Below the pieces are notes generated by a model. The model saw only the letters and a list, made by a program, of their open reading frames with translations. It had not been told where the DNA came from and did not search any database. DNA of 60,000 bases from Strigamia acuminata (lineage: Eukaryota; Arthropoda; Chilopoda; Geophilomorpha; Linotaeniidae): NCBI GenBank assembly GCA_949358305.1, contig OX442320.1, positions 3,366,259 through 3,426,258 on the forward strand, written 5' to 3'. Shown here one piece after another: positions 1 through 36,780 of the stretch; the stretch's first letter is position 1, and each line of letters begins with the position of its first letter. Both the position numbers and the translations under genes were made by a program.

Positions 1-3000
1 ATTTTAAAAAATCGAATTTTGGAACAGAACTAAAATGTCCAAGGTCATGTAACTGGGTCATTAAAGTAGATATATGTTCATCATTAATTCCAAATACATT
101 TGCAAATATTTTCTTAAAACTTTCTTCAATGTGTTTAATCCCGGTAACTCTAGTATTAATATCATCGGTGGTAACGGTTTTATTATGTGTCTTCAAAAGA
201 TCAGTTACTTTGAGAAGAATTTTTTTCAGCTTCTGTTGTGAATATTCTGATGGCTCTTTGACCGTAACTTCTGCCGTGCTGCTATCGACGATTTCTTTTG
301 CTTTAGCGACTAACACTCGGACCATCAATTTTGCATTGACAAGGACCAGGTTGAGATATTCAGTCACTTGGGTGGCGTTAGAAGTGTGGACGACGTGTGC
401 ATTTGAAAAATGTCTGAAACCCTTCAGTAACTCCTGCAGGAGGCCAGTACTCTGTTGTGTGGTCAAGCCCATGATTCCATTCAATTTTTCAGTCAGTTTT
501 TCTTTGTATTCATTGACCAAGTCGTTAAGTCCGGGCACCAGGATGCCTTCGGCTGGCTTCGGATAAATGTTAGTGACCACAGCAGCTTTAGCTTTAACAA
601 ATAAAAACCTCGTCACTCTTTCTGCGTAGCGGCGAACCTGATTCAGGTAGACAGGAGTTTGAGTGATATTCAGTCTGTAGTGGCCATCTGCATTTGGAAA
701 AGTGGTTAAAGTCTGCACAAATTCTGCTACAATTTGGCTTTTGTTTTGGTTGGTTAAACCGGTGACTCCGGACAAATCTTTGTTAAGCATTTGTTTGTGC
801 TCATCAATTACTTGGCTCAGTCCAGGCACAGGAGAAGCAGTAGGTTGTTTTGGAATTTTGGTGATGAACGCAAATGCTTCGGCTTTGGTAGCAATGGATT
901 CTGCAAGCAATTTATCAAATTGACGTACATCTTCGAGATATTCTGCACGCCTGCGTTGTTCCAGCAGCTCCCAGCTGTCTGCTGACGGGAAATGTTTTGT
1001 CTGATTTACAAATTCTTTGTCCAATTCCTGACGTCGCAGTTTGGTAAGATTGGTAACTGTGAGCAAAACTTCTTCCACTTTCTTGTGAGAATATTCTTGT
1101 TGCTGTTTGACCGTCTCTTTTGTCATGGTGCTTTCAACCAATTTTTTGGCTTCAGCCACAAGCGCTTGGACCATCATTACTGCTTTGACACGGACCTGGT
1201 TGAGATGTTCAGTCACTTGTGTGACGTTGGAAGTGTGGACGACGTGTGCATTTGAAAAATGTCTGAAACCCTTCAGTAACTCCTGCACGAGGCCAGTTCT
1301 CCATTGCATGGTCAAACCCATAATTCCATTCAATTTTTCAGTCAGTTTTTCTTTGTATTCATTGACCAAGTCGTTAAGTCCGGGCACCAGGATGCCTTCG
1401 GCTGGCTTCGGATAAATGTTAGTGACCACAGCAGCTTTAGCTTTAACAAATAAAAACCTCGTCACTCTTTCTGCGTAGCGGCGAACCTGAGTCAGGTAGA
1501 CAGGAGTTTGAGTGATATTCAGTCTGTAGTGGCCATCTGCATTTGGAAAAGTGGTTAAAGTCTGCACAAATTCTGCTACAATTTGGCTTTTGTTTTGGTT
1601 AGTTAAACCGGTGACTCCGGACAAATCTTTGTTAAGCATTTGTTTGTGCTCATCAATTACTTGGCTCAGTCCAGGCACAGGAGAAGCAGTAGGTTGTTTT
1701 GGAATTTTGGTGATGAACGCAAATGCTTCGGCTTTGGTAGCAATGGATTCTGCAAGCAATTTATCAAATTGACGTACATCTTCGAGATATTCTGCACGCC
1801 TGCGTTGTTCCAGCAGCTCCCAGCTGTCTGCTGACGGGAAATGTTTTGTCTGATTTACAAATTCTTTGTCCAATTCCTGACGTCGCAGTTTGGTAAGATT
1901 GGTAACTGTGAGCAAAACTTCTTCCACTTTCTTGTGAGAATATTCTTGTTGCTGTTTGACCGTCTCTTTTTTCATGGTGCTTTCGACCAATTTTTTGGCC
2001 TCAGCAACAAGCGCTTGGACCATCATTACTGCTTTGACACGGACCTGGTTGAGATGTTCAGTCACTTGTGTGGCGTTGGAAGTGTGGACGACGTGTGCAT
2101 TTGAAAAATGTCTGAAACCCTTCAGTAACTCCTGCACGAGGCCAGTTCTCCATTGCATGGTCAAACCCATAATTCCATTCAATTTTTCAGTCAGTTTTTC
2201 TTTGTATTCATTGACCAAGTCGTTAAGTCCGGGCACCAGGATGCCTTCGGCTGGCTTCGGATAAATGTTAGTGACCACAGCAGCTTTAGCTTTAACAAAT
2301 AAAAACCTCGTCACTCTTTCTGCGTAGCGGCGAACCTGATTCAGGTAGACAGCAGTTTGAGTGATATTCAGTCTGTAATGGCCATCTGCATTTGGAAAAG
2401 TGGTTAAAGTCTGCACAAATTCTGCTACAATTTGGCTTTTGTTTTGGTTGGTTAAACCGGTGACTCCGGACAAATCTTTGTTAAGCATTTGTTTGTGCTC
2501 ATCAATTACTTGGCTCAGTCCAGGCACAGGAGAAGCAGTAGGTTGTTTTGGAATTTTGGTGATGAACGCAAATGCTTCGGCTTTGGTAGCAATGGATTCT
2601 GCAAGCAATTTATCAAATTGACGTACATCTTCGAGATATTCTGCACGCCTGCGTTGTTCCAGCAGCTCCCAGCTGTCTGCTGACGGGAAATGTTTTGTCT
2701 GATTTACAAATTCTTTGTCCAATTCCTGACGTCGCAGTTTGGTAAGATTGGTAACTGTGAGCAAAACTTCTTCCACTTTCTTGTGAGAATATTCTTGTTG
2801 CTGTTTGACCGTCTCTTTTGTCATGGTGCTTTCGACCAATTTTTTGGCCTCAGCCACAAGCGCTTGGACCATCATTACTGCTTTGACACGGACCTGGTTG
2901 AGATGTTCAGTCACTTGTGTGGCGTTGGAAGTGTGGACGAGTAGTGCATTTGAAAAATGTCTGAAACCCTTCAGTAACTCCTGCACGAGGCCAGTTCTCC

Positions 3001-6000
3001 ATTGCATGGTCAAGCCCATAATTCCATTCAATTTTTCAGTCAGTTTTTCTTTGTATTCATTGACCAAGTCGTGAAGTCCGGGCACCAGGATGCCTTCGGC
3101 TGGCTTCGGATAAATGTTAGTGACCACAGCAGCTTTAGCTTTAACAAATAAAAACCTCGTCACTCTTTCTGCGTAGCGGCGAACCTGATTCAGGTAGACA
3201 GGAGTTTGAGTGATATTCAGTCTGTAGTGGCCATCTGCATTTGGAAAAGTGGTTAAAGTCTGCACAAATTCTGCTACAATTTGGCTTTTGTTTTGGTTGG
3301 TTAAACCGGTGACTCCGGACAAATCTTTGTTAAGCATTTGTTTGTGCTCATCAATTACTTGGCTCAGTCCAGGCACAGGAGAAGCAGTAGGTTGTTTTGG
3401 AATTTTAGTGATGAACGCAAATGCTTCGGCTTTGGTAGCAATGGATTCGGCAAGCAATTTATCAAATTGACGTACATCTTCGAGATATTCTGCACGCCTG
3501 CGTTGTTCCAGCAGCTCCCAGCTGTCTGCTGACGGGAAATGTTTTGTCTGATTTACAAATTCTTTGTCCAATTCCTGACGTCGCAGTTTGGTAAGATTGG
3601 TAACTGTGAGCAAAACTTCTTCCACTTTCTTGTGAGAATATTCTTGTTGCTGTTTGACCGTCTCTTTTGTCATGGTGCTTTCGACCAATTTTTTGGCCTC
3701 AGCCACAAGCGCTTGGACCATCATTACTGCTTTGACACGGACCTGGTTGAGATGTTCAGTCACTTGTGTGGCGTTGGAAGTGTGGACGAGTAGTGCATTT
3801 GAAAAATGTCTGAAACCCTTCAGTAACTCCTGCACGAGGCCAGTTCTCCATTGCATGGTCAAGCCCATAATTCCATTCAATTTTTCAGTCAGTTTTTCTT
3901 TGTATTCATTGACCAAGTCGTGAAGTCCGGGCACCAGGATGCCTTCGGCTGGCTTCGGATAAATGTTAGTGACCACAGCAGCTTTAGCTTTAACAAATAA
4001 AAACCTCGTCACTCTTTCTGCGTAGCGGCGAACCTGATTCAGGTAGACAGGAGTTTGAGTGATATTCAGTCTGTAGTGGCCATCTGCATTTGGAAAAGTG
4101 GTTAAAGTCTGCACAAATTCTGCTACAATTTGGCTTTTGTTTTGGTTGGTTAAACCGGTGACTCCGGACAAATCTTTGTTAAGCATTTGTTTGTGCTCAT
4201 CAATTACTTGGCTCAGTCCAGGCACAGGAGAAGCAGTAGGTTGTTTTGGAATTTTAGTGATGAACGCAAATGCTTCGGCTTTGGTAGCAATGGATTCGGC
4301 AAGCAATTTATCAAATTGACGTACATCTTCGAGATATTCTGCACGCCTGCGTTGTTCCAGCAGCTCCCAGCTGTCTGCTGACGGGAAATGTTTTGTCTGA
4401 TTTACAAATTCTTTGTCCAATTCCTGACGTCGCAGTTTGGTAAGATTGGTAACTGTGAGCAAAACTTCTTCCACTTTCTTGTGAGAATATTCTTGTTGCT
4501 GTTTGACCGTCTCTTTTGTCATGGTGCTTTCGACCAATTTTTTGGCCTCAGCAACAAGCGCTTGGACCATCATTACTGCTTTGACACGGACCTGGTTGAG
4601 ATGTTCAGTCACTTGTGTGGCGTTGGAAGTGTGGACGACGTGTGCATTTGAAAAATGTCTGAAACCCTTCAGTAACTCCTGCACGAGGCCAGTTCTCCAT
4701 TGCATGGTCAAGCCCATAATTCCATTCAATTTTTCAGTCAGTTTTTCTTTGTATTCATTGACCAAGTCGTTAAGTCCGGGCACCAGGATGCCTTCGGCTG
4801 GCTTCGGATAAATGTTAGTGACCACAGCAGCTTTAGCTTTAACAAATAAAAACCTCGTCACTCTTTCTGCGTAGCGGCGAACCTGATTCAGGTAGACAGG
4901 AGTTTGAGTGATATTCAGTCTGTAGTGGCCATCTGCATTTGGAAAAGTGGTTAAAGTCTGCACAAATTCTGCTACAATTTGGCTTTTGTTTTGGTTGGTT
5001 AAACCGGTGACTCCGGACAAATCTTTGTTAAGCATTTGTTTGTGCTCATCAATTACTTGGCTCAGTCCAGGCACAGGAGAAGCAGTAGGTTGTTTTGGAA
5101 TTTTGGTGATGAACGCAAATGCTTCGGCTTTGGTAGCAATGGATTCGGCAAGCAATTTATCAAATTGACGTACATCTTCGAGATATTCTGCATGCCTGCG
5201 TTGTTCCAGCAGCTCCCAGCTGTCTGCTGACGGGAAATGTTTTGTCTGATTTACAAATTCTTTGTCCAATTCCTGACGTCGCAGTTTGGTAAGATTGGTA
5301 ACTGTGAGCAAAACTTCTTCCACTTTCTTGTGAGAATATTCTTGTTGCTGTTTGATCGTCTCTTTTGTCATGGTGCTTTCGACCAATTTTTTGGCCTCAG
5401 CAACAAGCGCTTGGACCATCATTACTGCTTTGACACGGACCTGGTTGAGATGTTCAGTCACTTGTTTTGCGTTGGAAGTGTGGACGACGTGTGCATTTGA
5501 AAAATGTCTGAAACCCTTCAGTAACTCCTGCACGAGGCCAGTTCTCCATTGCATGGTCAAGCCCATAATTCCATTCAATTTTTCAGTCAGTTTTTCTTTG
5601 TATTCATTGACCAAGTCGTTAAGTCCGGGCACCAGGATGCCTTCGGCTGGCTTCGGATAAATGTTAGTGACCACAGCAGCTTTAGCTTTAACAAATAAAA
5701 ACCTCGTCACTCTTTCTGCGTAGCGGCGAACCTGATTCAGGTAGACAGGAGTTTGAGTGATATTCAGTCTGTAGTGGCCATCTGCATTTGGAAAAGTGGT
5801 TAAAGTCTGCACAAATTCTGCTACAATTTGGCTTTTGTTTTGGTTGGTTAAACCGGTGACTCCGGACAAATCTTTGTTAAGCATTTGTTTGTGCTCATCA
5901 ATTACTTGGCTCAGTCCAGGCACAGGAGAAGCAGTAGGTTGTTTTGGAATTTTGGTGATGAACGCAAATGCTTCGGCTTTGGTAGCAATGGATTCGGCAA

Positions 6001-30000: not shown

Positions 30001-33000
30001 CGACCAATTTTTTGGCCTCAGCAACAAGCGCTTGGACCATCATTACTGCTTTGACACGGACCTGGTTGAGATGTTCAGTCACTTGTTTTGCGTTGGAAGT
30101 GTGGACGACGTGTGCATTTGAAAAATGTCTGAAACCCTTCAGTAACTCCTGCACAAGGCCAGTTCTCCATTGCATGGTCAAGCCCATAATTCCATTCAAT
30201 TTTTCAGTCAGTTTTTCTTTGTATTCATTGACCAAGTCGTTAAGTCCGGGCACCAGGATGCCTTCGGCTGGCTTCGGATAAATGTTAGTGACCACAGCAG
30301 CTTTAGCTTTAACAAATAAAAACCTCGTCACTCTTTCTGCGTAGCGGCGAACCTGATTCAAGTAGACAGGAGTTTGAGTAATATTCAGTCTGTAGTGGCC
30401 ATCTGCATTTGGAAAAGTGGTTAAAGTCTGCACAAATTCTGCTACAATTTGGCTTTTGTTTTGGTTGGTTAAACCGGTGACTCCGGACAAATCTTTGTTA
30501 AGCATTTGTTTGTGCTCATCAATTACTTGGCTCAGTCCAGGCACAGGAGAAGCAGTAGGTTGTTTTGGAATTTTGGTGATGAACGCAAATGCTTCGGCTT
30601 TGGTAGCAATGGATTCTGCAAGCAATTTATCAAATTGACGTACATCTTCGAGATATTCTGCACGCCTGCGTTGTTCCAGCAGCTCCCAGCTGTCTGCTGA
30701 CGGGAAATGTTTTGTCTGATTTACAAATTCTTTGTCCAATTCCTGACGTCGCAGTTTGGTAAGATTGGTAACTGTGAGCAAAACTGCTTCCACTTTCTTG
30801 TGAGAATATTCTTGTTGCTGTTTGACCGTCTCTTTTGTCATGGTGCTTTCGACCAATTGTTTGGCCTCAGCCACAAGCACTTGGACCATCATTACAGCTT
30901 TGGCACTGACCTGATTGAGATGTTCAGTCACTTGTGTGGCGTTGGAAGTGTGGACGACGTGTGCATTTGAAAAATGTCTGAAACTCTTCAGTAACTCCTG
31001 CACGAGGCCAGTTCTCCATTGCATGGTCAAGCCCATAATTCCATTCAATTTTTCAGTCAGTTTTTCTTTGTATTCATTGACCAAGTCGTTAAGTCCGGGC
31101 ACCAGGATGCCTTCGGCTGGCTTCGGATAAATGTTAGTGACCACAGCAGCTTTAGCTTTAACAAATAAAAACCTCGTCACTCTTTCTGCGTAGCGGCGAA
31201 CCTGATTCAGGTAGACAGGAGTTTGAGTAATATTCAGTCTGTAGTGGCCATCTGCATTTGGAAAAGTGGTTAAAGTCTGCACAAATTCTGCTACAATTTG
31301 GCTTTTGTTTTGGTTGGTTAAACCGGTGACTCCGGACAAATCTTTGTTAAGCATTTGTTTGTGCTCATCAATTACTTGGCTCAGTCCAGGCACAGGAGAA
31401 GCAGTAATTTGTTTTGGAATTTTTGTGATGAACGCAAATGCTTCGGCTTTGGTAGCAATGGATTCTGCAAGCAATTTATCAAATTGACGTACATCTTCGA
31501 GATATTCTGCACGCCTGCGTTGTTCCAGCAGCTCCCAGCTGTCTGCTGACGGGAAATGTTTTGTCTGATTTACAAATTCTTTGTCCAATTCCTGACGTCG
31601 CAGTTTGGTAAGATTGGTAACTGTGAGCAAAACTTCTTCCACTTTCTTGTGAGAATATTCTTGTTGCTGTTTGACCGTCTCTTTTGTCATGGTGCTTTCG
31701 ACCAATTTTTTGGCCTCAGCCACAAGCACTTGGACCAACATTACAGCTTTGGCACGGACCTGATTGAGATGTTCAGTCACTTGTGTGGCGTTGGAAGTGT
31801 GGACGACGTGTGCATTTGAAAAATGTCTGAAACCCTTCAGTAACTCCTGCACGAGGCCAGTTCTCCATTGCATGGTCAAGCCCATAATTCCATTCAATTT
31901 TTCAGTCAGTTTTTCTTTGTATTCATTGACCAAGTCGTTAAGTCCGGGCACCAGGATGCCTTCGGCTGGCTTCGGATAAATGTTAGTGACCACAGCAGCT
32001 TTAGCTTTAACAAATAAAAACCTCGTCACTCTTTCTGCGTAGCGGCGAACCTGATTCAGGTAGACAGGAGTTTGAGTAATATTCAGTCTGTAGTGGCCAT
32101 CTGCATTTGGAAAAGTGGTTAAAGTCTGCACAAATTCTGCTACAATTTGGCTTTTGTTTTGGTTGGTTAAACCGGTGACTCCGGACAAATCTTTGTTAAG
32201 CATTTGTTTGTGCTCATCAATTACTTGGCTCAGTCCAGGCACAGGAGAAGCAGTAGGTTGTTTTGGAATTTTGGTGATGAACGCAAATGCTTCGGCTTTG
32301 GTAGCAATGGATTCTGCAAGCAATTTATCAAATTGACGTACATCTTCGAGATATTCTGCACGCCTGCGTTGTTCCAGCAGCTCCCAGCTGTCTGCTGACG
32401 GGAAATGTTTTGTCTGATTTACAAATTCTTTGTCCAATTCCTGACGTTGCAGTTTGGTAAGATTGGTAACTGTGAGCAAAACTTCTTCCACTTTCTTGTG
32501 AGAATATTCTTGTTGCTGTTTGACCGTCTCTTTTGTCATGGTGCTTTCGACCAATTTTTTGGCCTCAGCCACAAGCGCTTCTTCCATCAATATTGCTTTG
32601 ACACGGACCTGGTTGAGATATTCAGTCACTTGTGTGGTGTTGGAAGTGTGGACAACGTGTGCATTTATAAAATGGCTTAAACCTTTCAGTAACTCCTGCA
32701 CGAGGCCAGTTCTCTGTTCCATGGTCAAGCCCATTATTCCATTCAATTTTTCAATGAGTTTTTCTTTGTATTTATTAATTAAGTCGCTAAGTCCATCAGC
32801 TGGCTTCGGATGTACGTTATTGAGTACAATTGCTTTAGCTTTAACAATTAAAGCCTTTTTTACTTTTTCTGCACAAGAGCAAAGGTGTTTGAGATATACA
32901 GAAGTTTGAGAGGCACTCATTCTGTAGAGGCCATTTGCATTTGGAAAAGTGGTCAAACACTGCACAAGTTCTGCTAAAAGTTGGCTTCTGTTTTGGCTGT

Positions 33001-35050
33001 TTAAATCAGTGACTTCAGACAAATCTTCGTTAAGCATTTGTTTGTACTCGTCAATTACTTGCTTGAGTCCAGGCACAGGAGAACCCGTTGGTTTTTCCGG
33101 GTTTTTGGTGGTTTCCACAATTGCTATTGCTTTGGTAATAATGGCCTCTGCAATTAGTTTGTCAAATGTGTGGACAGTTTTGAGATAGTCTACACGCTTG
33201 TTTTCTTCCAGAAGCTCCCATCTTTCTGGCATTGGAAAGTCTTTTGTCTGACTGACAAATTCAAGGTCCAATTTCTGACGTTGTTGGTGGGTTAGTTGGG
33301 TCAGTTTGAACAAAATCTCTACTAATTTCTCGTGGGAATATTCCCTATGCTGTTTGATCGTTTCTATGCCATCAGATAAATCTTTAGTTTTATCCATTAT
33401 TTGATCTATTTTAACTGCACTGTTGATTGTAGCAGCAGCATATTCAGCTATTGTCACTAATGCTTTGGTCATATTTTTGGCATACATCTGAGCTAGCTCT
33501 AAATATTTATTAAGTTGATTTTGTTCCAGTGATAGACTCTTTCTTGCATTAGGAAAATCTTTAAAAACTTGGACTAAATCTTTGAGAAGTTGATTTCTTA
33601 TGTCATTACTCACATATGAATAGTTATTCAACACATCTATTAGCATATTGTTGATGTTTTGGTCAGTCAATAGTTCATCAACATGACTTCCTCTATTTAT
33701 CCCAACTGTATGTAAAGTTTGTTTCAAAATTTCTTGCACAGCCACAGATGCTTTTCCCTTAATTTGAAGTGCACCTACAATATTTATACCAAAATTACTA
33801 AAACCTTTTACATATTGTCTAATTTTGTTATTCTTTAAAAATTCTCTGTTTCCGCTCATTATAAACTCATAAATATTCCCCACAAATTCACTTAATATTT
33901 GCAAATGTATTTCATTAGAGAGATACTGGATCCTCTTTAGTTCTGTCTCTAGCGTGCTTTGATGTCGCTTAATCACATCACTAAAATCTTCTGTTATTAC
34001 AACCGGGGTTTGCGTAATTTCTGTTGGGCTAACGGTGCTTGCAAATGCTACAGCTTTAGCCACCAAGGCTAAAGTCATCCTTCTACCAAAGCTACCTATC
34101 TGTCTTAGATATTCAACTTCTTGTTCGTTCTTCCCATGTATATATGGTAAACTCATCAAACTCTGCACCAATTCAAAGTCTAAGTTACTTATCTGCTCAC
34201 GGGTAACACCGGTCACGTTTTTCAACACCCTAGTCATATTTTCTTTTAAATTTTCAATCAAAGTCTTTCGATTAAGGTTCGCCTCACCTACGGATCCCAC
34301 AGGGTATTCGCTAGTGTATGCTAGTGCTTCCGCTTTCACAATTAACGCACTTACAATATTTTTAACGTAGTCCTCGAGATAATTGAGATTCTGACTAACA
34401 CCGCTGTCTTGCAATATCTCCCAATTAATTTGTGTTGGAAACTGCCCGGTCCACTTTGAAAATTCATTCAACAATTCGCGATGAGTTTTCATGGCGAGAC
34501 CTTTGACTCTGTGTAGAGCTTTATCAAGTATTTGTTTCAAAAATATAACTATGTTGTCAAACCCTGGTAAAGATTGCAATTGGTTGCCGTATTCTTCGTT
34601 TGAGTTTGAGTGGCCAATAAATCGGTTGCGAGCCTTTTTCACGTGATGATGGGAAAATGAGTGGCCATTAAATCTGCTGTAAGCTTTTTTTCCGTGATTG
34701 GAATGACCGACAAAGCGTTTTGACCATTTAAGTGGAGATTTTTTTACTTGCTCGAGTTGATTTTTCGGTTTATGGGCCAGACCGGTAACATTATTCAACA
34801 TGAAAGTGATTCTCTCATTGTTTTGGGGGTTCATCCATTGATCTAAGAACTCGAGCTTTTGTTGTTCCTTCTGTTCTTCACTGAGGTCATATAATTGGTC
34901 AATTGCTGTCAATTGCTTTAGCAGTTGATCAATATGATCAACTCTTGACACTGGTGTTTCAATGAGGACTTCTTGTTCGGTAAGAGGTTCAGAATTGATA
35001 GGTAAGATCACGAAAAATACTAAAAAGTACTTTACCAAATCCAACTTCAT
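1..35050 (-). CDS. Giant secreted tandem-repeat protein, 3' end beyond window
   Basis: A single minus-strand frame is open from the ATG at 35050-35048 to the left edge (11,683 full codons, no stop). I checked the frame at the start, at 32720, at 1307 and at 1-190, and all are in phase. Residues 1-20 form a signal peptide: charged start MKLDLVK, hydrophobic core YFLVFFVILP, likely cut after PINS. Residues 21-183 are unique, Q/E/K-rich, with three RFxGHS motifs at 112-148. Residues 184-584 hold four divergent modules of about 95 residues, 585-773 a divergent two-module stretch, then 38 near-identical 283-residue units. The units lack cysteine, carry about five N-glycosylation sequons each and look helical. 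The estimated mass exceeds 1.2 MDa. The frame still reads module-like sequence at the left edge, so the stop lies outside. No family is recognised. Secretion is inferred from the signal peptide; structural, salivary, venom or silk-like roles are all only possible. No intron is needed inside the window. Confidence 0.88.
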   Translation of the reverse strand, partial: MKLDLVKYFLVFFVILPINSEPLTEQEVLIETPVSRVDHIDQLLKQLTAIDQLYDLSEEQKEQQKLEFLDQWMNPQNNERITFMLNNVTGLAHKPKNQLEQVKKSPLKWSKRFVGHSNHGKKAYSRFNGHSFSHHHVKKARNRFIGHSNSNEEYGNQLQSLPGFDNIVIFLKQILDKALHRVKGLAMKTHRELLNEFSKWTGQFPTQINWEILQDSGVSQNLNYLEDYVKNIVSALIVKAEALAYTSEYPVGSVGEANLNRKTLIENLKENMTRVLKNVTGVTREQISNLDFELVQSLMSLPYIHGKNEQEVEYLRQIGSFGRRMTLALVAKAVAFASTVSPTEITQTPVVITEDFSDVIKRHQSTLETELKRIQYLSNEIHLQILSEFVGNIYEFIMSGNREFLKNNKIRQYVKGFSNFGINIVGALQIKGKASVAVQEILKQTLHTVGINRGSHVDELLTDQNINNMLIDVLNNYSYVSNDIRNQLLKDLVQVFKDFPNARKSLSLEQNQLNKYLELAQMYAKNMTKALVTIAEYAAATINSAVKIDQIMDKTKDLSDGIETIKQHREYSHEKLVEILFKLTQLTHQQRQKLDLEFVSQTKDFPMPERWELLEENKRVDYLKTVHTFDKLIAEAIITKAIAIVETTKNPEKPTGSPVPGLKQVIDEYKQMLNEDLSEVTDLNSQNRSQLLAELVQCLTTFPNANGLYRMSASQTSVYLKHLCSCAEKVKKALIVKAKAIVLNNVHPKPADGLSDLINKYKEKLIEKLNGIMGLTMEQRTGLVQELLKGLSHFINAHVVHTSNTTQVTEYLNQVRVKAILMEEALVAEAKKLVESTMTKETVKQQQEYSHKKVEEVLLTVTNLTKLQRQELDKEFVNQTKHFPSADSWELLEQRRRAEYLEDVRQFDKLLAESIATKAEAFAFITKIPKQPTASPVPGLSQVIDEHKQMLNKDLSGVTGLTNQNKSQIVAEFVQTLTTFPNADGHYRLNITQTPVYLNQVRRYAERVTRFLFVKAKAAVVTNIYPKPAEGILVPGLNDLVNEYKEKLTEKLNGIMGLTMQWRTGLVQELLKGFRHFSNAHVVHTSNATQVTEHLNQVRAKAVMLVQVLVAEAKKLVESTMTKETVKQQQEYSHKKVEEVLLTVTNLTKLRRQELDKEFVNQTKHFPSADSWELLEQRRRAEYLEDVRQFDKLLAESIATKAEAFAFITKIPKQITASPVPGLSQVIDEHKQMLNKDLSGVTGLTNQNKSQIVAEFVQTLTTFPNADGHYRLNITQTPVYLNQVRRYAERVTRFLFVKAKAAVVTNIYPKPAEGILVPGLNDLVNEYKEKLTEKLNGIMGLTMQWRTGLVQELLKSFRHFSNAHVVHTSNATQVTEHLNQVSAKAVMMVQVLVAEAKQLVESTMTKETVKQQQEYSHKKVEAVLLTVTNLTKLRRQELDKEFVNQTKHFPSADSWELLEQRRRAEYLEDVRQFDKLLAESIATKAEAFAFITKIPKQPTASPVPGLSQVIDEHKQMLNKDLSGVTGLTNQNKSQIVAEFVQTLTTFPNADGHYRLNITQTPVYLNQVRRYAERVTRFLFVKAKAAVVTNIYPKPAEGILVPGLNDLVNEYKEKLTEKLNGIMGLTMQWRTGLVQELLKGFRHFSNAHVVHTSNAKQVTEHLNQVRVKAVMMVQALVAEAKKLVESTMTKETVKQQQEYSHKKVEEVLLTVTNLTKLRRQELDKEFVNQTKHFPSADSWELLEQRRRAEYLEDVRQFDKLLAESIATKAEAFAFITKIPKQPTASPVPGLSQVIDEHKQMLNKDLSGVTGLTNQNKSQIVAEFVQTLTTFPNADGHYRLNITQTPVYLNQVRRYAERVTRFLFVKAKAAVVTNIYPKPAEGILVPGLNDLVNEYKEKLTEKLNGIMGLTMQWRTGLVQELLKGFRHFSNAHVVHTSNATQVTEHLNQVRVKAVMMVQALVAEAKKLVENTMTKETVKQQQEYSHKKVEEVLLTVTNLTKLRRQELDKEFVNQTKHFPSADSWELLEQRRRAEYLEDVRQFDKLLAESIATKAEAFAFITKIPKQPTASPVPGLSQVIDEHKQMLNKDLSGVTGLTNQNKSQIVAEFVQTLTTFPNADGHYRLNITQTPVYLNQVRRYAERVTRFLFVKAKAAVVTNIYPKPAEGILVPGLNDLVNEYKEKLTEKLNGIMGLTMQWRTGLVQELLKGFRHFSNAHVVHTSNAKQVTEHLNQVRVKAVMMVQALVAEAKKLVESTMTKETVKQQQEYSHKKVEEVLLTVTNLTKLRRQELDKEFVNQTKHFPSADNWELLEQRRRAEYLEDVRQFDKLLAESIATKAEAFAFITKIPKQPTASPVPGLSQVIDEHKQMLNKDLSGVTGLTNQNKSQIVAEFVQTLTTFPNADGHYRLNITQTPVYLNQVRRYAERVTRFLFVKAKAAVVTNIYPKPAEGILVPGFNDLVNEYKEKLTEKLNGIMGLTMQWRTGLVQELLKGFRHFSNAHVVHTSNAKQVTEHLNQVRVKAVMMVQALVAEAKKLVESTMTKETVKQQQEYSHKKVEEVLLTVTNLTKLRRQELDKEFVNQTKHFPSADSWELLEQRRRAEYLEDVRQFDKLLAESIATKAEAFAFITKIPKQPTASPVPGLSQVIDEHKQMLNKDLSGVTGLTNQNKSQIVAEFLQTLTTFPNADGHYRLNITQTPVYLNQVRRYVERVMRFLFVKAKAAVVTNIYPKPAEGILVPGLNDLVNEYKEKLTEKLNGIMGLTMQWRTGLVQELLKGFRHFSNAHVVHTSNAKQVTEHLNQVRVKAVMMVQALVAEAKKLVESTMTKETVKQQQEYSHKKVEEVLLTVTNLTKLRRQELDKEFVNQTKHFPSADSWELLEQRRRAEYLEDVRQFDKLLAESIATKAEAFAFITKIPKQPTASPVPRLSQVIDEHKQMLNKDLSGVTGLTNQNKSQIVAEFVQTLTTFPNADGHYRLNITQTPVYLNQVRRYAERVTRFLFVKAKAAVVTNIYPKPAEGILVPGLNDLVNEYKEKLTEKLNGIMGLTMQWRTGLVQELLKGFRHFSNAHVVHTSNAKQVTEHLNQVRVKAVMMVQALVAEAKKLVESTMTKETVKQQQEYSHKKVEEVLLTVTNLTKLRRQELDKEFVNQTKHFPSADSWELLEQRRRAEYLEDVRQFDKLLAESIATKAEAFAFITKIPKQPTASPVPGLSQVIDEHKQMLNKDLSGVTGLTNQNKSQIVAEFVQTLTTFPNADGHYRLNITQTPVYLNQVRRYAERVTRFLFVKAKAAVVTNIYPKPAEGILVPGLNDLVNEYKEKLTEKLNGIMGLTMQWRTGLVQELLKGFRHFSNAHVVHTSNATQVTEHLNQVRVKAVMMVQALVAEAKKLVESTMTKETVKQQQEYSHKKVEEVLLTVTNLTKLRRQELDKEFVNQTKHFPSADSWELLEQRRRAEYLEDVRQFDKLLAESIATKAEAFAFITKIPKQPTASPVPGLSQVIDEHKQMLNKDLSGVTGLTNQNKSQIVAEFVQTLTTFPNADGHYRLNITQTPVYLNQVRRYAERVTRFLFVKAKAAVVTNIYPKPAEGILVPGLNDLVNEYKEKLTEKLNGIMGLTMQWRTGLVQELLKGFRHFSNAHVVHTSNATQVTEHLNQVRVKAVMMVQALVAEAKKLVESTMTKETVKQQQEYSHKKVEEVLLTVTNLTKLRRQELDKEFVNQTKHFPSADSWELLEQRRRAEYLEDVRQFDKLLAESIATKAEAFAFITKIPKQPTASPVPGLSQVIDEHKQMLNKDLSGVTGLTNQNKSQIVAEFVQTLTTFPNADGHYRLNITQTPVYLNQVRRYAERVTRFLFVKAKAAVVTNIYPKPAEGILVPGLNDLVNEYKEKLTEKLNGIMGLTMQWRTGLVQELLKGFRHFSNAHVVHTSNATQVTEHLNQVRVKAVMMVQALVAEAKKLVESTMTKETVKQQQEYSHKKVEEVLLTVTNLTKLRRQELDKEFVNQTKHFPSADSWELLEQRRRAEYLEDVRQFDKLLAESIATKAEAFAFITKIPKQPTASPVPGLSQVIDEHKQMLNKDLSGVTGLTNQNKSQIVAEFVQTLTTFPNADGHYRLNITQTPVYLNQVRRYAERVTRFLFVKAKAAVVTNIYPKPAEGILVPGLNDLVNEYKEKLTEKLNGIMGLTMQWRTGLVQELLKGFRHFSNAHVVHTSNATQVTEHLNQVRVKAVMMVQALVAEAKKLVESTMTKETVKQQQEYSHKKVEEVLLTVTNLTKLRRQELDKEFVNQTKHFPSADSWELLEQRRRAEYLEDVRQFDKLLAESIATKAEAFAFITKIPKQPTASPVPGLSQVIDEHKQMLNKDLSGVTGLTNQNKSQIVAEFVQTLTTFPNADGHYRLNITQTPVYLNQVRRYAERVTRFLFVKAKAAVVTNIYPKPAEGILVPGLNDLVNEYKEKLTEKLNGIMGLTMQWRTGLVQELLKGFRHFSNAHVVHTSNATQVTEHLNQVRVKAVMMVQALVAEAKKLVESTMTKETVKQQQEYSHKKVEEVLLTVTNLTKLRRQELDKEFVNQTKHFPSADSWELLEQRRRAEYLEDVRQFDKLLAESIATKAEAFAFITKIPKQPTASPVPGLSQVIDEHKQMLNKDLSGVTGLTNQNKSQIVAEFVQTLTTFPNADGHYRLNITQTPVYLNQVRRYAERVTRFLFVKAKAAVVINIYPKPAEGILVPGLNDLVNEYKEKLTEKLNGIMGLTMQWRTGLVQELLKGFRHFSNAHVVHTSNATQVTEHLNQVRVKAVMMVQALVAEAKKLVESTMTKETVKQQQEYSHKKVEEVLLTVTNLTKLRRQELDKEFVNQTKHFPPADSWELLEQRRRAEYLEDVRQFDKLLAESIATKAEAFAFITKIPKQPTASPVPGLSQVIDEHKQMLNKDLSGVTGLTNQNKSQIVAEFVQTLTTFPNADGHYRLNITQTPVYLNQVRRYAERVTRFLFVKAKAAVVTNIYPKPAEGILVPGLNDLVNEYKEKLTEKLNGIMGLTMQWRTGLVQELLKGFRHFSNAHVVHTSNATQVTEHLNQVRVKAVMMVQALVAEAKKLVESTMTKETVKQQQEYSHKKVEEVLLTVTNLTKLRRQELDKEFVNQTKHFPSADSWELLEQRRRAEYLEDVRQFDKLLAESIATKAEAFAFITKIPKQPTASPVPGLSQVIDEHKQMLNKDLSGVTGLTNQNKSQIVAEFVQTLTTFPNADGHYRLNITQTPVYLNQVRRYAERVTRFLFVKAKAAVVTNIYPKPAEGILVPGLNDLVNEYKEKLTEKLNGIMGLTMQWRTGLVQELLKGFRHFSNAHVVHTSNAKQVTEHLNQVRVKAVMMVQALVAEAKKLVESTMTKETVKQQQEYSHKKVEEVLLTVTNLNKLRRQELDKEFVNQTKHFPSADSWELLEQRRRAEYLEDVRQFDKLLAESIATKAEAFAFITKIPKQPTASPVPGLSQVIDEHKQMLNKDLSGVTGLTNQNKSQIVAEFVQTLTTFPNADGHYRLNITQTPVYLNQVRRYAERVTRFLFVKAKAAVVTNIYPKPAEGILVPGLNDLVNEYKEKLTEKLNGIMGLTMQWRTGLVQELLKGFRHFSNAHVVHTSNATQVTEHLNQVRVKAVMMVQALVAEAKKLVESTMTKETVKQQQEYSHKKVEEVLLTVTNLTKLRRQELDKEFVNQTKHFPSADSWELLEQRRRAEYLEDVRQFDKLLAESIATKAEAFAFITKIPKQPTASPVPGLSQVIDEHKQMLNKDLSGVTGLTNQNKSQIVAEFVQTLTTFPNADGHYRLNITQTPVYLNQVRRYAERVTRFLFVKAKAAVVTNIYPKPAEGILVPGLNDLVNEYKEKLTEKLNGIMGLTMQWRTGLVQELLKGFRHFSNAHVVHTSNAKQVTEHLNQVRVKAVMMVQALVAEAKKLVESTMTKETVKQQQEYSHKKVEEVLLTVTNLNKLRRQELDKEFVNQTKHFPSADSWELLEQRRRAEYLEDVRQFDKLLAESIATKAEAFAFITKIPKQPTASPVPGLSQVIDEHKQMLNKDLSGVTGLTNQNKSQIVAEFVQTLTTFPNADGHYRLNITQTPVYLNQVRRYAERVTRFLFVKAKAAVVTNIYPKPAEGILVPGLNDLVNEYKEKLTEKLNGIMGLTMQWRTGLVQELLKGFRHFSNAHVVHTSNATQVTEHLNQVRVKAVMMVQALVAEAKKLVESTMSKETVKQQQEYSHKKVEEVLLTVTNLTKLRRQELDKEFVNQTKHFPSADSWELLEQRRRAEYLEDVRQFDKLLAESIATKAEAFAFITKIPKQPTASPVPGLSQVIDEHKQMLNKDLSGVTGLTNQNKSQIVAEFVQTLTTFPNADGHYRLNITQTPVYLNQVRRYAERVTRFLFVKAKAAVVTNIYPKPAEGILVPGLNDLVNEYKEKLTEKLNGIMGLTMQWRTGLVQELLKGFRHFSNSHVVHTSNATQVTEHLNQVRVKAVMMVQALVAEAKKLVESTMTKETVKQQQEYSHKKVEEVLLTVTNLTKLRRQELDKEFVNQTKHFPSADSWELLEQRRRAEYLEDVRQFDKLLAESIATKAEAFAFITKIPKQPTASPVPGLSQVIDEHKQMLNKDLSGVTGLTNQNKSQIVAEFVQTLTTFPNADGHYRLNITQTPVYLNQVRRYAERVTRFLFVKAKAAVVTNIYPKPAEGILVPGLNDLVNEYKEKLTEKLNGIMGLTMQWRTGLVQELLKGFRHFSNAHVVHTSNAKQVTEHLNQVRVKAVMMVQALVAEAKKLVESTMTKETVKQQQEYSHKKVEEVLLTVTNLTKLRRQELDKEFVNQTKHFPSADSWELLEQRRRAEYLEDVRQFDKLLAESIATKAEAFAFITKIPKQPTASPVPGLSQVIDEHKQMLNKDLSGVTGLTNQNKSQIVAEFVQTLTTFSNADGHYRLNITQTPVYLNQVRRYAERVTRFLFVKAKAAVVTNIYPKPAEGILVPGLNDLVNEYKEKLTEKLNKIMGLTMQWRTGLVQELLKGFRHFSNAHVVHTSNAKQVTEHLNQVRVKAVMMVQALVAEAKKLVESTMTKETVKQQQEYSHKKVEEVLLTVTNLNKLRRQELDKEFVNQTKHFPSADSWELLEQRRRAEYLEDVRQFDKLLAESIATKAEAFAFITKIPKQPTASPVPGLSQVIDEHKQMLNKDLSGVTGLTNQNKSQIVAEFVQTLTTFPNADGHYRLNITQTPVYLNQVRRYAERVTRFLFVKAKAAVVTNIYPKPAEGILVPGLNDLVNEYKEKLTEKLNGIMGLTMQWRTGLVQELLKGFRHFSNAHVVHTSNATQVTEHLNQVRVKAVMMVQALVAEAKKLVESTMSKETVKQQQEYSHKKVEEVLLTVTNLTKLRRQELDKEFVNQTKHFPSADSWELLEQRRRAEYLEDVRQFDKLLAESIATKAEAFAFITKIPKQPTASPVPGLSQVIDEHKQMLNKDLSGVTGLTNQNKSQIVAEFVQTLTTFPNADGHYRLNITQTPVYLNQVRRYAERVTRFLFVKAKAAVVTNIYPKPAEGILVPGLNDLVNEYKEKLTEKLNGIMGLTMQWRTGLVQELLKGFRHFSNAHVVHTSNATQVTEHLNQVRVKAVMMVQALVAEAKKLVESTMTKETVKQQQEYSHKKVEEVLLTVTNLTKLRRQELDKEFVNQTKHFPSADSWELLEQRRRAEYLEDVRQFDKLLAESIATKAEAFAFITKIPKQPTASPVPGLSQVIDEHKQMLNKDLSGVTGLTNQNKSQIVAEFVQTLTTFPNADGHYRLNITQTPVYLNQVRRYAERVTRFLFVKAKAAVVTNIYPKPAEGILVPGLNDLVNEYKEKLTEKLNGIMGLTMQWRTGLVQELLKGFRHFSNAHVVHTSNAKQVTEHLNQVRVKAVMMVQALVAEAKKLVESTMTKETVKQQQEYSHKKVEEVLLTVTNLTKLRRQELDKEFVNQTKHFPSADSWELLEQRRRAEYLEDVRQFDKLLAESIATKAEAFAFITKIPKQPTASPVPGLSQVIDEHKQMLNKDLSGVTGLTNQNKSQIVAEFVQTLTTFPNADGHYRLNITQTPVYLNQVRRYAERVTRFLFVKAKAAVVTNIYPKPAEGILVPGLNDLVNEYKEKLTEKLNGIMGLTMQWRTGLVQELLKGFRHFSNAHVVHTSNATQVTEHLNQVRVKAVMMVQALVAEAKKLVESTMTKETVKQQQEYSHKKVEEVLLTVTNLTKLRRQELDKEFVNQTKHFPSADSWELLEQRRRAEYLEDVRQFDKLLAESIATKAEAFAFITKIPKQPTASPVPGLSQVIDEHKQMLNKDLSGVTGLTNQNKSQIVAEFVQTLTTFPNADGHYRLNITQTPVYLNQVRRYAERVTRFLFVKAKAAVVTNIYPKPAEGILVPGLNDLVNEYKEKLTEKLNGIMGLTMQWRTGLVQELLKGFRHFSNAHVVHTSNAKQVTEHLNQVRVKAVMMVQALVAEAKKLVESTMTKETVKQQQEYSHKKVEEVLLTVTNLNKLRRQELDKEFVNQTKHFPSADSWELLEQRRRAEYLEDVRQFDKLLAESIATKAEAFAFITKIPKQPTASPVPGLSQVIDEHKQMLNKDLSGVTGLTNQNKSQIVAEFVQTLTTFPNADGHYRLNITQTPVYLNQVRRYAERVTRFLFVKAKAAVVTNIYPKPAEGILVPGLNDLVNEYKEKLTEKLNGIMGLTMQWRTGLVQELLKGFRHFSNAHVVHTSNATQVTEHLNQVRVKAVMMVQALVAEAKKLVESTMSKETVKQQQEYSHKKVEEVLLTVTNLTKLRRQELDKEFVNQTKHFPSADSWELLEQRRRAEYLEDVRQFDKLLAESIATKAEAFAFITKIPKQPTASPVPGLSQVIDEHKQMLNKDLSGVTGLTNQNKSQIVAEFVQTLTTFPNADGHYRLNITQTPVYLNQVRRYAERVTRFLFVKAKAAVVTNIYPKPAEGILVPGLNDLVNEYKEKLTEKLNGIMGLTMQWRTGLVQELLKGFRHFSNAHIVHTSNATQVTEHLNQVRVKAVMMVQALVAEAKKLVESTMTKETVKQQQEYSHKKVEEVLLTVTNLNKLRRQELDKEFVNQTKHFPSADSWELLEQRRRAEYLEDVRQFDKLLAESIATKAEAFAFITKIPKQPTASPVPGLSQVIDEHKQMLNKDLSGVTGLTNQNKSQIVAEFVQTLTTFPNADGHYRLNITQTPVYLNQVRRYAERVTRFLFVKAKAAVVTNIYPKPAEGILVPGLNDLVNEYKEKLTEKLNGIMGLTMQWRTGLVQELLKGFRHFSNAHVVHTSNATQVTEHLNQVRVKAVMMVQALVAEAKKLVESTMSKETVKQQQEYSHKKVEEVLLTVTNLTKLRRQELDKEFVNQTKHFPSADSWELLEQRRRAEYLEDVRQFDKLLAESIATKAEAFAFITKIPKQPTASPVPGLSQVIDEHKQMLNKDLSGVTGLTNQNKSQIVAEFVQTLTTFPNADGHYRLNITQTPVYLNQVRRYAERVTRFLFVKAKAAVVTNIYPKPAEGILVPGLNDLVNEYKEKLTEKLNGIMGLTMQWRTGLVQELLKGFRHFSNAHVVHTSNATQVTEHLNQVRVKAVMMVQALVAEAKKLVESTMTKETVKQQQEYSHKKVEEVLLTVTNLTKLRRQELDKEFVNQTKHFPSADSWELLEQRRRAEYLEDVRQFDKLLAESIATKAEAFAFITKIPKQPTASPVPGLSQVIDEHKQMLNKDLSGVTGLTNQNKSQIVAEFVQTLTTFPNADGHYRLNITQTPVYLNQVRRYAERVTRFLFVKAKAAVVTNIYPKPAEGILVPGLNDLVNEYKEKLTEKLNGIMGLTMQWRTGLVQELLKGFRHFSNAHVVHTSNAKQVTEHLNQVRVKAVMMVQALVAEAKKLVESTMTKETIKQQQEYSHKKVEEVLLTVTNLTKLRRQELDKEFVNQTKHFPSADSWELLEQRRHAEYLEDVRQFDKLLAESIATKAEAFAFITKIPKQPTASPVPGLSQVIDEHKQMLNKDLSGVTGLTNQNKSQIVAEFVQTLTTFPNADGHYRLNITQTPVYLNQVRRYAERVTRFLFVKAKAAVVTNIYPKPAEGILVPGLNDLVNEYKEKLTEKLNGIMGLTMQWRTGLVQELLKGFRHFSNAHVVHTSNATQVTEHLNQVRVKAVMMVQALVAEAKKLVESTMTKETVKQQQEYSHKKVEEVLLTVTNLTKLRRQELDKEFVNQTKHFPSADSWELLEQRRRAEYLEDVRQFDKLLAESIATKAEAFAFITKIPKQPTASPVPGLSQVIDEHKQMLNKDLSGVTGLTNQNKSQIVAEFVQTLTTFPNADGHYRLNITQTPVYLNQVRRYAERVTRFLFVKAKAAVVTNIYPKPAEGILVPGLHDLVNEYKEKLTEKLNGIMGLTMQWRTGLVQELLKGFRHFSNALLVHTSNATQVTEHLNQVRVKAVMMVQALVAEAKKLVESTMTKETVKQQQEYSHKKVEEVLLTVTNLTKLRRQELDKEFVNQTKHFPSADSWELLEQRRRAEYLEDVRQFDKLLAESIATKAEAFAFITKIPKQPTASPVPGLSQVIDEHKQMLNKDLSGVTGLTNQNKSQIVAEFVQTLTTFPNADGHYRLNITQTPVYLNQVRRYAERVTRFLFVKAKAAVVTNIYPKPAEGILVPGLHDLVNEYKEKLTEKLNGIMGLTMQWRTGLVQELLKGFRHFSNALLVHTSNATQVTEHLNQVRVKAVMMVQALVAEAKKLVESTMTKETVKQQQEYSHKKVEEVLLTVTNLTKLRRQELDKEFVNQTKHFPSADSWELLEQRRRAEYLEDVRQFDKLLAESIATKAEAFAFITKIPKQPTASPVPGLSQVIDEHKQMLNKDLSGVTGLTNQNKSQIVAEFVQTLTTFPNADGHYRLNITQTAVYLNQVRRYAERVTRFLFVKAKAAVVTNIYPKPAEGILVPGLNDLVNEYKEKLTEKLNGIMGLTMQWRTGLVQELLKGFRHFSNAHVVHTSNATQVTEHLNQVRVKAVMMVQALVAEAKKLVESTMKKETVKQQQEYSHKKVEEVLLTVTNLTKLRRQELDKEFVNQTKHFPSADSWELLEQRRRAEYLEDVRQFDKLLAESIATKAEAFAFITKIPKQPTASPVPGLSQVIDEHKQMLNKDLSGVTGLTNQNKSQIVAEFVQTLTTFPNADGHYRLNITQTPVYLTQVRRYAERVTRFLFVKAKAAVVTNIYPKPAEGILVPGLNDLVNEYKEKLTEKLNGIMGLTMQWRTGLVQELLKGFRHFSNAHVVHTSNVTQVTEHLNQVRVKAVMMVQALVAEAKKLVESTMTKETVKQQQEYSHKKVEEVLLTVTNLTKLRRQELDKEFVNQTKHFPSADSWELLEQRRRAEYLEDVRQFDKLLAESIATKAEAFAFITKIPKQPTASPVPGLSQVIDEHKQMLNKDLSGVTGLTNQNKSQIVAEFVQTLTTFPNADGHYRLNITQTPVYLNQVRRYAERVTRFLFVKAKAAVVTNIYPKPAEGILVPGLNDLVNEYKEKLTEKLNGIMGLTTQQSTGLLQELLKGFRHFSNAHVVHTSNATQVTEYLNLVLVNAKLMVRVLVAKAKEIVDSSTAEVTVKEPSEYSQQKLKKILLKVTDLLKTHNKTVTTDDINTRVTGIKHIEESFKKIFANVFGINDEHISTLMTQLHDLGHFSSVPKFDFLK
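370..32640 (-). repeat. 849-bp coding tandem array, 38 near-identical units
   Basis: Any fixed landmark recurs every 849 bp: for example a landmark at 702 returns at 1551, 2400 and so on to 32115, which is exactly 37 periods with no indel. 849 is 3 x 283, so the minus-strand frame is kept. Units differ by scattered single-base changes only. Variant markers travel in multi-unit blocks, so the array has higher-order structure. Similarity decays at both ends: at 1-370 (C-terminal side) and right of 32640 (N-terminal side). This pattern is expected for unequal crossing-over or gene conversion with purifying selection on the frame. Small plus-strand open frames recur in every unit but are antisense shadows. 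Confidence 0.97.
32732..33298 (-). repeat. Divergent edge unit (modules C' and A') of the giant protein
   Basis: Residues 585-773 of the giant protein are a decayed copy of the array unit, the first modules before the homogeneous array. Module C' (585-681) starts QLTHQQRQKLDLEF and keeps the WELLE, YL and FDKL positions. Module A' (682-773) is five codons shorter than its array counterparts around the PGL segment. That explains why the last landmark spacing is 834 rather than 849 bp. A' also has cysteines (VQCL, HLCSC) that the array units lack. It appears to have escaped homogenisation. Confidence 0.85.
33299..34501 (-). repeat. Four unamplified, highly diverged modules (N1-N4)
   Basis: Residues 184-584 of the giant protein can be lined up by eye with the array module. 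Each begins with a short motif followed by a helix like Q-x3-L-x2-EF-x5-F, then YL-x2-V, then AL-(V/I)-x-KA-x-A. Starts are roughly at residue 184 (GLAMKTHRELLNEF), 281 (GVTREQISNLDFEL), 377 (YLSNEIHLQILSEF) and 479 (VSNDIRNQLLKDL). They share the pattern but little sequence, so they are older duplicates outside the amplified array. Module borders are approximate and were set by eye. Confidence 0.7.
34607..34717 (-). other. Triple RFxGHS motif in the N-terminal unique region
   Basis: Residues 112-117 (RFVGHS), 126-131 (RFNGHS) and 143-148 (RFIGHS) of the giant protein repeat the same hexapeptide pattern, separated by basic linkers (HGKKAYS, then an HHH-VKKARN linker). This is a separate small repeat, unrelated to the 95-residue module. 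The basic residues before each copy could be processing sites, but no canonical furin site is evident. Function unknown. Confidence 0.75.
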
Positions 35051-35110
35051 AATGGTCAACAAACTATAAAACAATAAAAAATATATGTATTTAAAATTAG
35101 ATTTTTTTAA
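35051..35110 (-). promoter_or_regulatory. Possible 5' leader or splice acceptor upstream of the giant gene
   Basis: Immediately upstream of the ATG the minus strand reads a T-rich tract ending TTTTATAG, then about 13 bases, then the ATG. This could be the acceptor of a 5'-UTR intron, common for secreted-protein genes, or an AT-rich core promoter with TATAT elements. Neither can be proved. The stretch 35111-35370 shows nothing recognisable. Confidence 0.25.
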
Positions 35111-35370
35111 CAGAGCAAATATGTGTAACATTAAGTAGTATGCCAATTGTGAAAAATTTTTAAGATTGTTGAAAACCTTTCACCGATTTGAGAAATTTTT
35201 TAAGAATTCTAAGTTGAGAAATTAAAATAAAATTTTCTAAATCAGACTAATTTTATGGTGTATTACACACCTCAAAGTGGGAACAATTCTTTTCTTCCAT
35301 TGAGTTTATTACAACTTTTATTATTGGTGCTTCAACCAAAGAAGCGCATTTTGGTAGGTAGGGGATTATA

Positions 35371-35599
35371 TTATTTGTACACTATTTTCCCTTATTTTTA
35401 CACTAAAAATCCCTGACTTTTACACTAAATTTTTGAATATCACCATTATTTTCCCTTATTTCTACACAACATAAATTCATACACATCAAGGACTGGTTTA
35501 GGTTAGGTTAGGTTAGGTTAGGTAGAAAAAAGAAGGCGGGGTCGTAAAAAAATTATTTTTTTTTTAGTGTAAAAATAAGGGAAAATAGTGTACAAATAA
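35371..35599. mobile_element. Small inverted-repeat element carrying TTAGG repeats
   Basis: Perfect 39-bp terminal inverted repeats at 35371-35409 and 35561-35599 (outer end TTATTTGTACACTATTTTCC) enclose about 150 bp. The interior has five consecutive TTAGG units at 35498-35522, the telomeric motif of most arthropods. No coding capacity, so it is a MITE-like element. A target duplication is not clear. Superfamily not assigned. Confidence 0.7.
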
Positions 35600-36780
35600 A
35601 TGGAACCCATTTTGTAGTTTGTACTTTTCTAAATTAAAGATTGTTTGTGCTTTTTTAGATGTGATTATTACCAGAGTTTTCAGATGATAGTCAATAGCAA
35701 CTGTTCTTAATAGAGGATGCTTTTAACCTGTTGCAGACAAATTGCTGATGTAATTTCAAAATGCACAGAAACAGTTTAAGGTGACGTAAACTAAATGAGA
35801 TTTTTATATTTTCTGAAATCCGTGCCAAAAAACCAAGTGGCTATGTTCATGTCCGACGTGAACGTATTATTTTCATGATGCGCTGTGATTGGCTGAGAGA
35901 CGTTAGGTTTACCTTGCGCCAATTTGAAACCCGGCGTTTATTCGGGCCTGACGCGTATTGAATTGTTTGGTAATACAATATTTATTTTATTTGCTAAAAT
36001 AAGCTTATTCCCCTTTTAAGCAATCAAACAATGTTAGAATAGTTTGTTGATTTCTTTTGGCAGGTATACAAAGGTTTAGATTTTTATTGGTTGTTTTGCC
36101 TAGTTAGATTACAATTCTGAGGTTGTGGGCTACTTTTTTGTGCCACTACACCCGTGATAAGGCTGAAATTAGGATAACGTTGTATCAGAACAGAGTATAA
36201 GTGAAATTTACTTCAGTAAAAATTAAAGAAATAGGAAAAAAATTCAGATTCAAGAAAGTGGTTGTACCTAAACAGGGATAGACTTTTTCCTCCAAGGTTT
36301 AGGGAAAAATATTTTCAGTAACTATAATTTTCAACAAAATATATAGAGAATTCTCCTTGTTTCTTGATAAAATTTATTTCAGTCTGATATTTAGTTTCAA
36401 TAAAATTGGAAGTGATTAAGATCTGGAACCAATCATCTAGGTTTTTTTTTAAACATTTTATCTGCTACGAATCCCTGCGGTGTAAAAATTGAATTGAGTG
36501 TGCAGCAATTACCATATTTTACCGATTAAAAGTCGTCGTCGAATTGTAGCAGCCCTCAAATAATAGCCTCCCTCGAATACTAGCCACACTAAGACACCAA
36601 GAATACCATATTTTTGTAAAAGTATGGTATTGTTTCAGTATTTAACCTCCCAAACGATGAACGTACCCTTCGTTCGAGACGTTCAGACTTCGTTTGTTAC
36701 AATAAACAAATGTAACAAACACATTGCGGCAGGATTTGTTTTATGAAAATGAAGAAAGTATTTTTAACATGAAAACCTTA
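35600..36780. other. Intergenic spacer, no gene recognised
   Basis: About 1.2 kb of AT-rich DNA without a convincing coding frame. Around 36510-36605 a stretch beginning ACCATATTTTACCGATTAAA, with repeated AATA-x-TAGCC words, looks like the end of an old interspersed repeat, but I cannot define its borders. Confidence 0.5.

Follow-up and report, generated by a model that had tools for sequence, protein, structure and literature searches.

The window analysed here is a 60,000-base stretch of the Strigamia acuminata genome, taken from a contig of 12,254,865 bases (C9) in an assembly of 237,517,015 bases and 157 contigs. Its left part is occupied by one reading frame on the minus strand, which begins with an ATG at window position 35050. 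As a preliminary description of this DNA had noted, the frame is still open where it leaves the window, at the left edge. In the flanking contig sequence it closes with a TAA that ends at C9:3366005, 254 bases beyond the window. The window thus holds residues 1-11683 of the coding exon (1..35050, minus strand), and the remainder and the stop lie beyond it. With the flank added, the coding sequence measures 35,304 nt including the stop, and what had been given as more than 11,680 residues becomes a protein of 11,767 residues, with a mass of 1.34 MDa and a pI of 9.4. No stop or indel interrupts the frame anywhere in the gene. At 35.3 kb it would, to our knowledge, rank with the longest unbroken coding exons of any secreted protein.

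Secretion is probable from the N-terminus, a hydrophobic, signal-peptide-like leader (MKLDLVKYFLVFFVILPINSEP) in which approximately residues 1-20 (MKLDLVKYFLVFFVILPINS; 34991..35050, minus strand) were assigned to the signal peptide by eye. Further along lie three short RF[V/N/I]GHS repeats (34604..34714, minus strand), with their F at residues 113, 127 and 144 and flanked by basic residues; this stretch (residues ~113-150) is a candidate for a small processed-peptide region near the N-terminus of the giant protein.

The giant gene has company on the same contig. A genome search with its 283-residue repeat unit, described below, returned at least 54 matches, all on C9 and all within the giant gene and three plus-strand paralogues 80-100 kb away from it. 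We call these PA (1,349 residues, 14 modules), PB (872 residues, 8 modules) and PC (1,267 residues, 12 modules); each has a signal-peptide-like leader and one open coding exon. Across 230 kb around the locus, the HMM built from the modules recovered the four genes and one weak match (E 0.056).

The promoter block of PA, PB and PC is conserved, and all three have a TATAAAAG box and a short leader exon ending in CAG, followed by a GT donor. Much of this layout can tentatively be traced in the giant gene too. In all four genes an AG acceptor stands 13 nt upstream of the ATG, and the 13 nt in between are similar (TTTGTTGACCATT in the giant, CTCGTTGACCATA in PB and PC, CTCGTTGACAACT in PA). Because the giant has this 3' splice site in common with the three paralogues, we argue that it too has a short non-coding leader exon. 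The putative GT..AG leader intron would span 35064..35727 (minus strand), its acceptor (TTTTATAG) and the adjoining 13 nt resembling those of 3/3 paralogues. The putative non-coding exon 1, placed from the layout at 35728..35780 (minus strand) with an approximate start, would end in GCAACAG before a GT donor that is plausible, if weaker. A TATA-like box (TATAAAAA; 35801..35808, minus strand) is proposed from its distance to this putative donor, which resembles that of the conserved TATA box of the paralogues. The gene is therefore probably composed of a leader exon and one giant coding exon; its earlier designation as single-exon stands for the coding part, and would have to yield to the short non-coding exon argued for by the shared splice site.

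Modules, linkers and selection

The modules of ~95 residues that had been proposed from the sequence are real: an HMM built from them finds 122 in the giant protein, comprising seven divergent modules at residues 163-841 (32528..34564, minus strand), 114 that make up a homogenised array, and, close to the C-terminus, a single degenerate one. From its N-terminus, the protein consists of the signal peptide, the seven divergent modules, 38 copies of a 283-residue (849-bp) unit and a short tail. The array (1..32527 in the window, minus strand) has its 38 unit starts between residues 844 and 11315 of the whole gene product, spaced by exactly 283 residues, and each unit is built from three related modules in the order B-C-A, with A 33% and B 26% identical to C. 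All 37 full units that we compared are 849 bp long, with no indel, frameshift or stop among them; they fall into 25 distinct DNA types, and the mean pairwise difference is 7.0 of 849 nt. The four cysteines of the protein (residues 698, 724, 726 and 11684) are all outside the homogenised array, which bears out the earlier statement that the array has none.

Considering that no exact repeat within the coding exon is longer than 3,006 bp, and that the assembly was made at 98-fold HiFi coverage with a QV of 59.6 (PMC10556566), the copy number as assembled is probably correct. There are no N bases in the 150 kb surrounding the giant gene.

A single module is predicted to fold as a three-helix bundle (three helices, mean pLDDT 84), and a model of the three-module unit has nine helices. 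In this unit model, the ten-residue mean pLDDT is 66-68 and 45-60 in the blocks containing the two module linkers; low pLDDT does not single the linkers out, since two loops within modules (46-50 and 238-245) are also among the low-confidence stretches.

It is in the linkers that the giant and its paralogues part ways. An RxxR or [KR]R site is present in 20/31 inter-module linkers of PA, PB and PC taken together and in 0/121 of the giant, and any arginine at all in 29/31 against 5/121; four of the latter five linkers are at the divergent ends and one is in a single array unit. The paralogue sites are basic and partly furin-like (RQAR, RQSR, SKR), as in ITRQAR/FIPG and SKR/AAEDRG. The giant protein has no R-x-[KR]-R in its whole length, and the claim that it lacks furin-type RxxR linkers holds for the linkers themselves. 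It does not extend to the modules: there are 38 bare RxxR motifs (mostly RVTR), roughly one to each array unit and situated in what is predicted to be the third helix of module C, and RR pairs are present in module B. From this contrast in linker sites, the paralogues look like polyproteins cut between their modules, whilst the giant looks like the same kind of chain left uncut at the linkers.

The module family is clearly protein-coding. Segments of the paralogues are under purifying selection, with a dN/dS of 0.22-0.29 in 5/5 pairs, one of these pairs lying within PA. In the giant, dN/dS is 0.59 between the first, diverged unit and an array unit, and 0.61 between the last unit and an early one. 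Among 57 array variants, 20 are synonymous, with P 0.019 against an unweighted expectation and 0.11 against one weighted for transitions and transversions, and on the latter value strong purifying selection within the array finds no support; the lack of any stop among these variants (P 0.07 if unconstrained) is weak by itself. Because the units differ so little, the evidence for constraint within the array is weak. That the frame is not open by chance follows instead from its 11,767 open codons, from 37 units without frameshift or stop, and from the conservation of the paralogues. Codon usage was rejected as a discriminator, the array unit being about equally close to the paralogues (correlation 0.70-0.73) and to the retrotransposon frames of the window (0.73-0.76).

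The array unit carries five N-glycosylation motifs, where shuffled sequence gives 1.9 (P 0.03), and these are kept in 33, 38, 38, 38 and 26 of the 38 units. The excess is modest, and we take it as a hint that the units may be glycosylated. Outside the array the giant has 7 motifs N-terminally against 7.2 expected and 1 C-terminally against 2.1, and the pooled paralogues have few (12 observed, 18.9 expected, P 0.05); with no excess outside the array, a family-wide gain of N-glycosylation finds no support.

Relatives and parallels in form

The preliminary description had found no recognised family, and neither Pfam nor PDB searches supplied one. It had also proposed a profile search with a single module as a test of this; 24 single modules and the array unit, run against Pfam at E up to 1, gave no credible match among the families inspected (the best 25 of 36 for the modules). 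Within that same scope, neither the nematode polyprotein allergen family nor the insect allergen repeat of the Bla g 1 type was among the matches, remote kinship with the former being possible. For residues 1-683 of the giant, Pfam at E up to 1 yielded only SPATA9 (0.0066) and PSD3 (0.17), both under the cut-off; Spidroin_N was not matched, nor was any other spidroin model. Neither the unit nor residues 1-683 nor PC showed a credible domain of the yolk, cuticle, chitin-binding or toxin kind.

Several apparent matches were discarded. Those of PC to Arg_decarbox_C (1.3e-12), FliG_N (2e-12) and V-SNARE (6.9e-6), and those of PA to Arg_decarbox_C, FliG_N and Ham1p_like, are whole-protein sums of weak stretches of which none passes singly. 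The match of PC to Cmr7A (4.2e-6; 27.1 bits at a cut-off of 27, two stretches) and that of one module to ATG17_like (0.00069) were judged to be chance in helical repeats.

The best E value against PDB sequences was 0.024, and no credible fold relative of the module was found, a likeness to spectrin-like three-helix repeats being possible; chains of the ABA-1 and Bla g 1 types were absent from the PDB sequence matches, an absence that carries no weight. PC had no match at E<=0.001 among 7,996 scored candidates of a protein collection whose myriapod share is uncertain. No such protein is named in the literature searched, a 2013 paper on sternal-gland chemistry (PubMed 23907296) lying outside its reach, and by a search for words the S. 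maritima genome paper (PMC4244043) mentions neither silk, tandem repeat, intronless, giant, glue nor lipid-binding. Within these Pfam, PDB, protein-collection and literature searches, the sequence family appears to be undescribed. Its kind is already known, namely the giant homogenised repeat protein made from one coding exon, met here in another animal group.

The closest parallels in form that can be checked in print are the aciniform and aggregate spidroins of spiders, which are absent from the preliminary description. The gene of AcSp1, a long secreted protein, is listed as lacking introns (PMC6553539, Table 1), the AcSp1 repeats in Argiope argentata are reported as >98% identical (PMC3933166), and the 200-residue aciniform repeats of A. 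trifasciata are described as five-helix bundles that behave as beads-on-a-string (PMC4481645). The giant resembles AcSp1 in its long single-exon gene, its homogenised repeats and its helical beads-on-a-string, the giant's helices being predicted; indeed, homogenised long tandem repeats within one large coding exon are a spidroin-like feature. It differs in having ~95-residue, predicted three-helix modules arranged in triplets, and in matching no spidroin model. Its coding sequence is nearly twice the longest intronless spidroin of a 2019 table (35,304 against 18,999 bp; PMC6553539). According to the same source, the AgSp1 coding sequence reaches 42,270 bp over two exons (PMC6553539). The AgSp1 repeats are rich in Gly, Pro and Thr and likely O-glycosylated. 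The giant shares with the glue proteins AgSp1 and AgSp2 the form of an extremely long secreted repeat protein, but its coding sequence is a single exon and its repeats are predicted to be helical and are rich in Leu, Val, Lys and Glu. The Glue1-18 families are unidentified proteins of the sticky telopodal secretion of the centipede Lithobius, 14/18 of them with a signal peptide (PMC11170834); a relation to the giant is conceivable.

Two further parallels had been raised, and set aside, in the preliminary description. That the modules are unlike Balbiani ring silk proteins is upheld. These proteins of Chironomus are also giant, secreted and built as a homogenised tandem array, but their repeats contain cysteines and short subrepeats, and the array of the giant contains no cysteine. 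The case of nematode polyprotein allergens is less simple. These consist of tandem helical units of ~130 residues with basic sites between them. The giant is unlike them in its units of ~95 residues, its linkers without sites and its lack of a Pfam match, and to that extent the earlier judgement stands. It does not stand for the module family as a whole, which has tandem helical units and basic, partly furin-like sites in most paralogue linkers, and for which the polyprotein parallel therefore holds.

Possible products of the giant gene

We posit that a lineage of secreted polyproteins of helical modules arose in a geophilomorph centipede and that it gave rise to one gene without basic sites in its linkers, the direction presumably being loss of these sites and not their gain. 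That gene would then have expanded through repeated duplication and homogenisation of its three-module, 849-bp unit. Its product, exported via the signal peptide as a single uncut chain, would carry ~122 small helical bundles on flexible linkers, a very long and soluble bead-string polymer that could be kept highly concentrated in a gland and turn viscous, sticky or fibrous upon discharge. The likeliest such product would be the defensive glue of the sternal (ventral) glands or, alternatively, the silk of the male's sperm web. By analogy with the systems above, we hold it to be nearly an even call that this is an expanded polyprotein gene, free of cleavage sites, whose product is a structural or adhesive polymer made in a gland. 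A more specific version is rather doubtful: that the giant is the chief polymer in the defensive glue or sperm-web silk of geophilomorphs, and represents a new megadalton bead-string class of material protein, independent of spiders, derived from a cleaved polyprotein gene that lost its linker sites and homogenised a unit rich in N-glycosylation motifs. We infer the absence of processing, the site of expression and the glue or silk function alike.

What is reported of these animals fits into this setting. Certain geophilomorphs release a sticky secretion of protein nature, which hardens on the ants that attack them, the reference given in a review being to Geophilus vittatus, and cyanogenic secretions also occur in Linotaeniidae (PMC6023451), the family in which Strigamia maritima is placed (PMC8056527). 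The sternal defence glands of geophilomorphs are described as aggregated (PMC8056527, PMC11170834), and threads for sperm transfer are reported from males of Geophilus flavus (PMC8056527).

Some features of the protein speak against glue or silk. If the RxxR of module C or the RR of module B were cut, the chain would not be intact; little Gly, Ser or Pro is found in the giant (3.5%, 4.1% and 3.4% of the part within the window), unlike in the repeats of spider glue; and much the same sequence could belong to a polyprotein of carriers, or to a bulk protein from egg, gut or haemolymph. The carrier alternative is that the product, as in nematode polyprotein allergens, is cleaved to yield numerous small helical carriers for lipid or other small molecules, with the giant as an extreme of copy number cut at sites other than linkers, such as the RVTR of module C. 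The small, amphipathic modules with their predicted helices would suit such carriers, as would the arginines and cutting sites in the linkers of the paralogues and the one RxxR in about every array unit; however, the RxxR of the unit lies inside a predicted helix, none of the 121 giant linkers has a site, and neither the unit nor 24 modules has a credible Pfam model, and we consider this reading unlikely.

Perhaps, instead, the giant is a bulk structural or storage protein made elsewhere, as an egg coat, a brood secretion, a haemolymph store, a gut lining or a venom-gland matrix, its length serving yield or viscosity. A signal peptide, many repeats and the TATA-type promoters of the paralogues would fit any bulk secretory product, and females are reported to use defensive substances when guarding eggs (PMC6023451); against this stands the lack of credible yolk, cuticle, chitin-binding and toxin domains in the sequences searched, and on balance we give it a low likelihood. 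An artefact of assembly or annotation, or a decayed gene open by chance, is very improbable: assemblers can mis-size tandem arrays, and selection within this one is weakly shown, but HiFi data with no exact repeat beyond 3,006 bp, the 25 kinds of unit in the 37 compared, gap-free sequence around the gene, 11,767 open codons and a splice acceptor common to the paralogues all argue otherwise. Should the polymer reading be true, myriapods would have a material-protein family of their own, linkers with and without cutting sites could be compared naturally in arrays of one module, and the protein basis of geophilomorph glue would become directly testable through peptide sequencing.

Other features of the window, contig and genome

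Right of the giant gene, Pfam recognises three LTR retrotransposon frames in the window: a Gypsy-like pol (46848-50939, minus strand), a copia-type gag-pol (52461-56747, plus strand) and a gag with a zinc knuckle (56905-59382, minus strand). Positions 43946-44213 hold a tandem repeat of 8.6 copies of 31 bp with 72% matches. There is no tRNA and no Rfam match at gathering score anywhere in the window.

Some 13 kb right of the window (C9:3439259-3441751, plus strand) is an open frame of 831 residues with ~33 copies of a 14-residue repeat, 26 of them exactly DPKSPNNIHGSTVT. Its N-terminal part, before these repeats, has cysteine motifs that we take to be WAP-like, and the frame matched nothing in Pfam at E up to 0.01; from its sequence it seems to encode a further secreted repeat protein prone to glycosylation, close to the giant. 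At C9:3250955-3259144 there are satellite-like arrays with several open frames that repeat SSTNFALLQREIVFDSFSSRMRILPFFNAKSYSTRF.

The published genome note gives 237,534,282 bp in 158 scaffolds, a chromosome 7 of 12.25 Mb and a mitochondrial genome of 15.07 kb (PMC10556566). In the assembly analysed here, the mitochondrial genome is a contig of 15,068 bases (C157), with AGA at serine positions of cox1. We judged its gene order to be unusual, with cox1-cox2-cox3-nad6-nad2 on one strand and atp6 elsewhere, and a stretch with trnY recurs near 8.5 and 11.6 kb.
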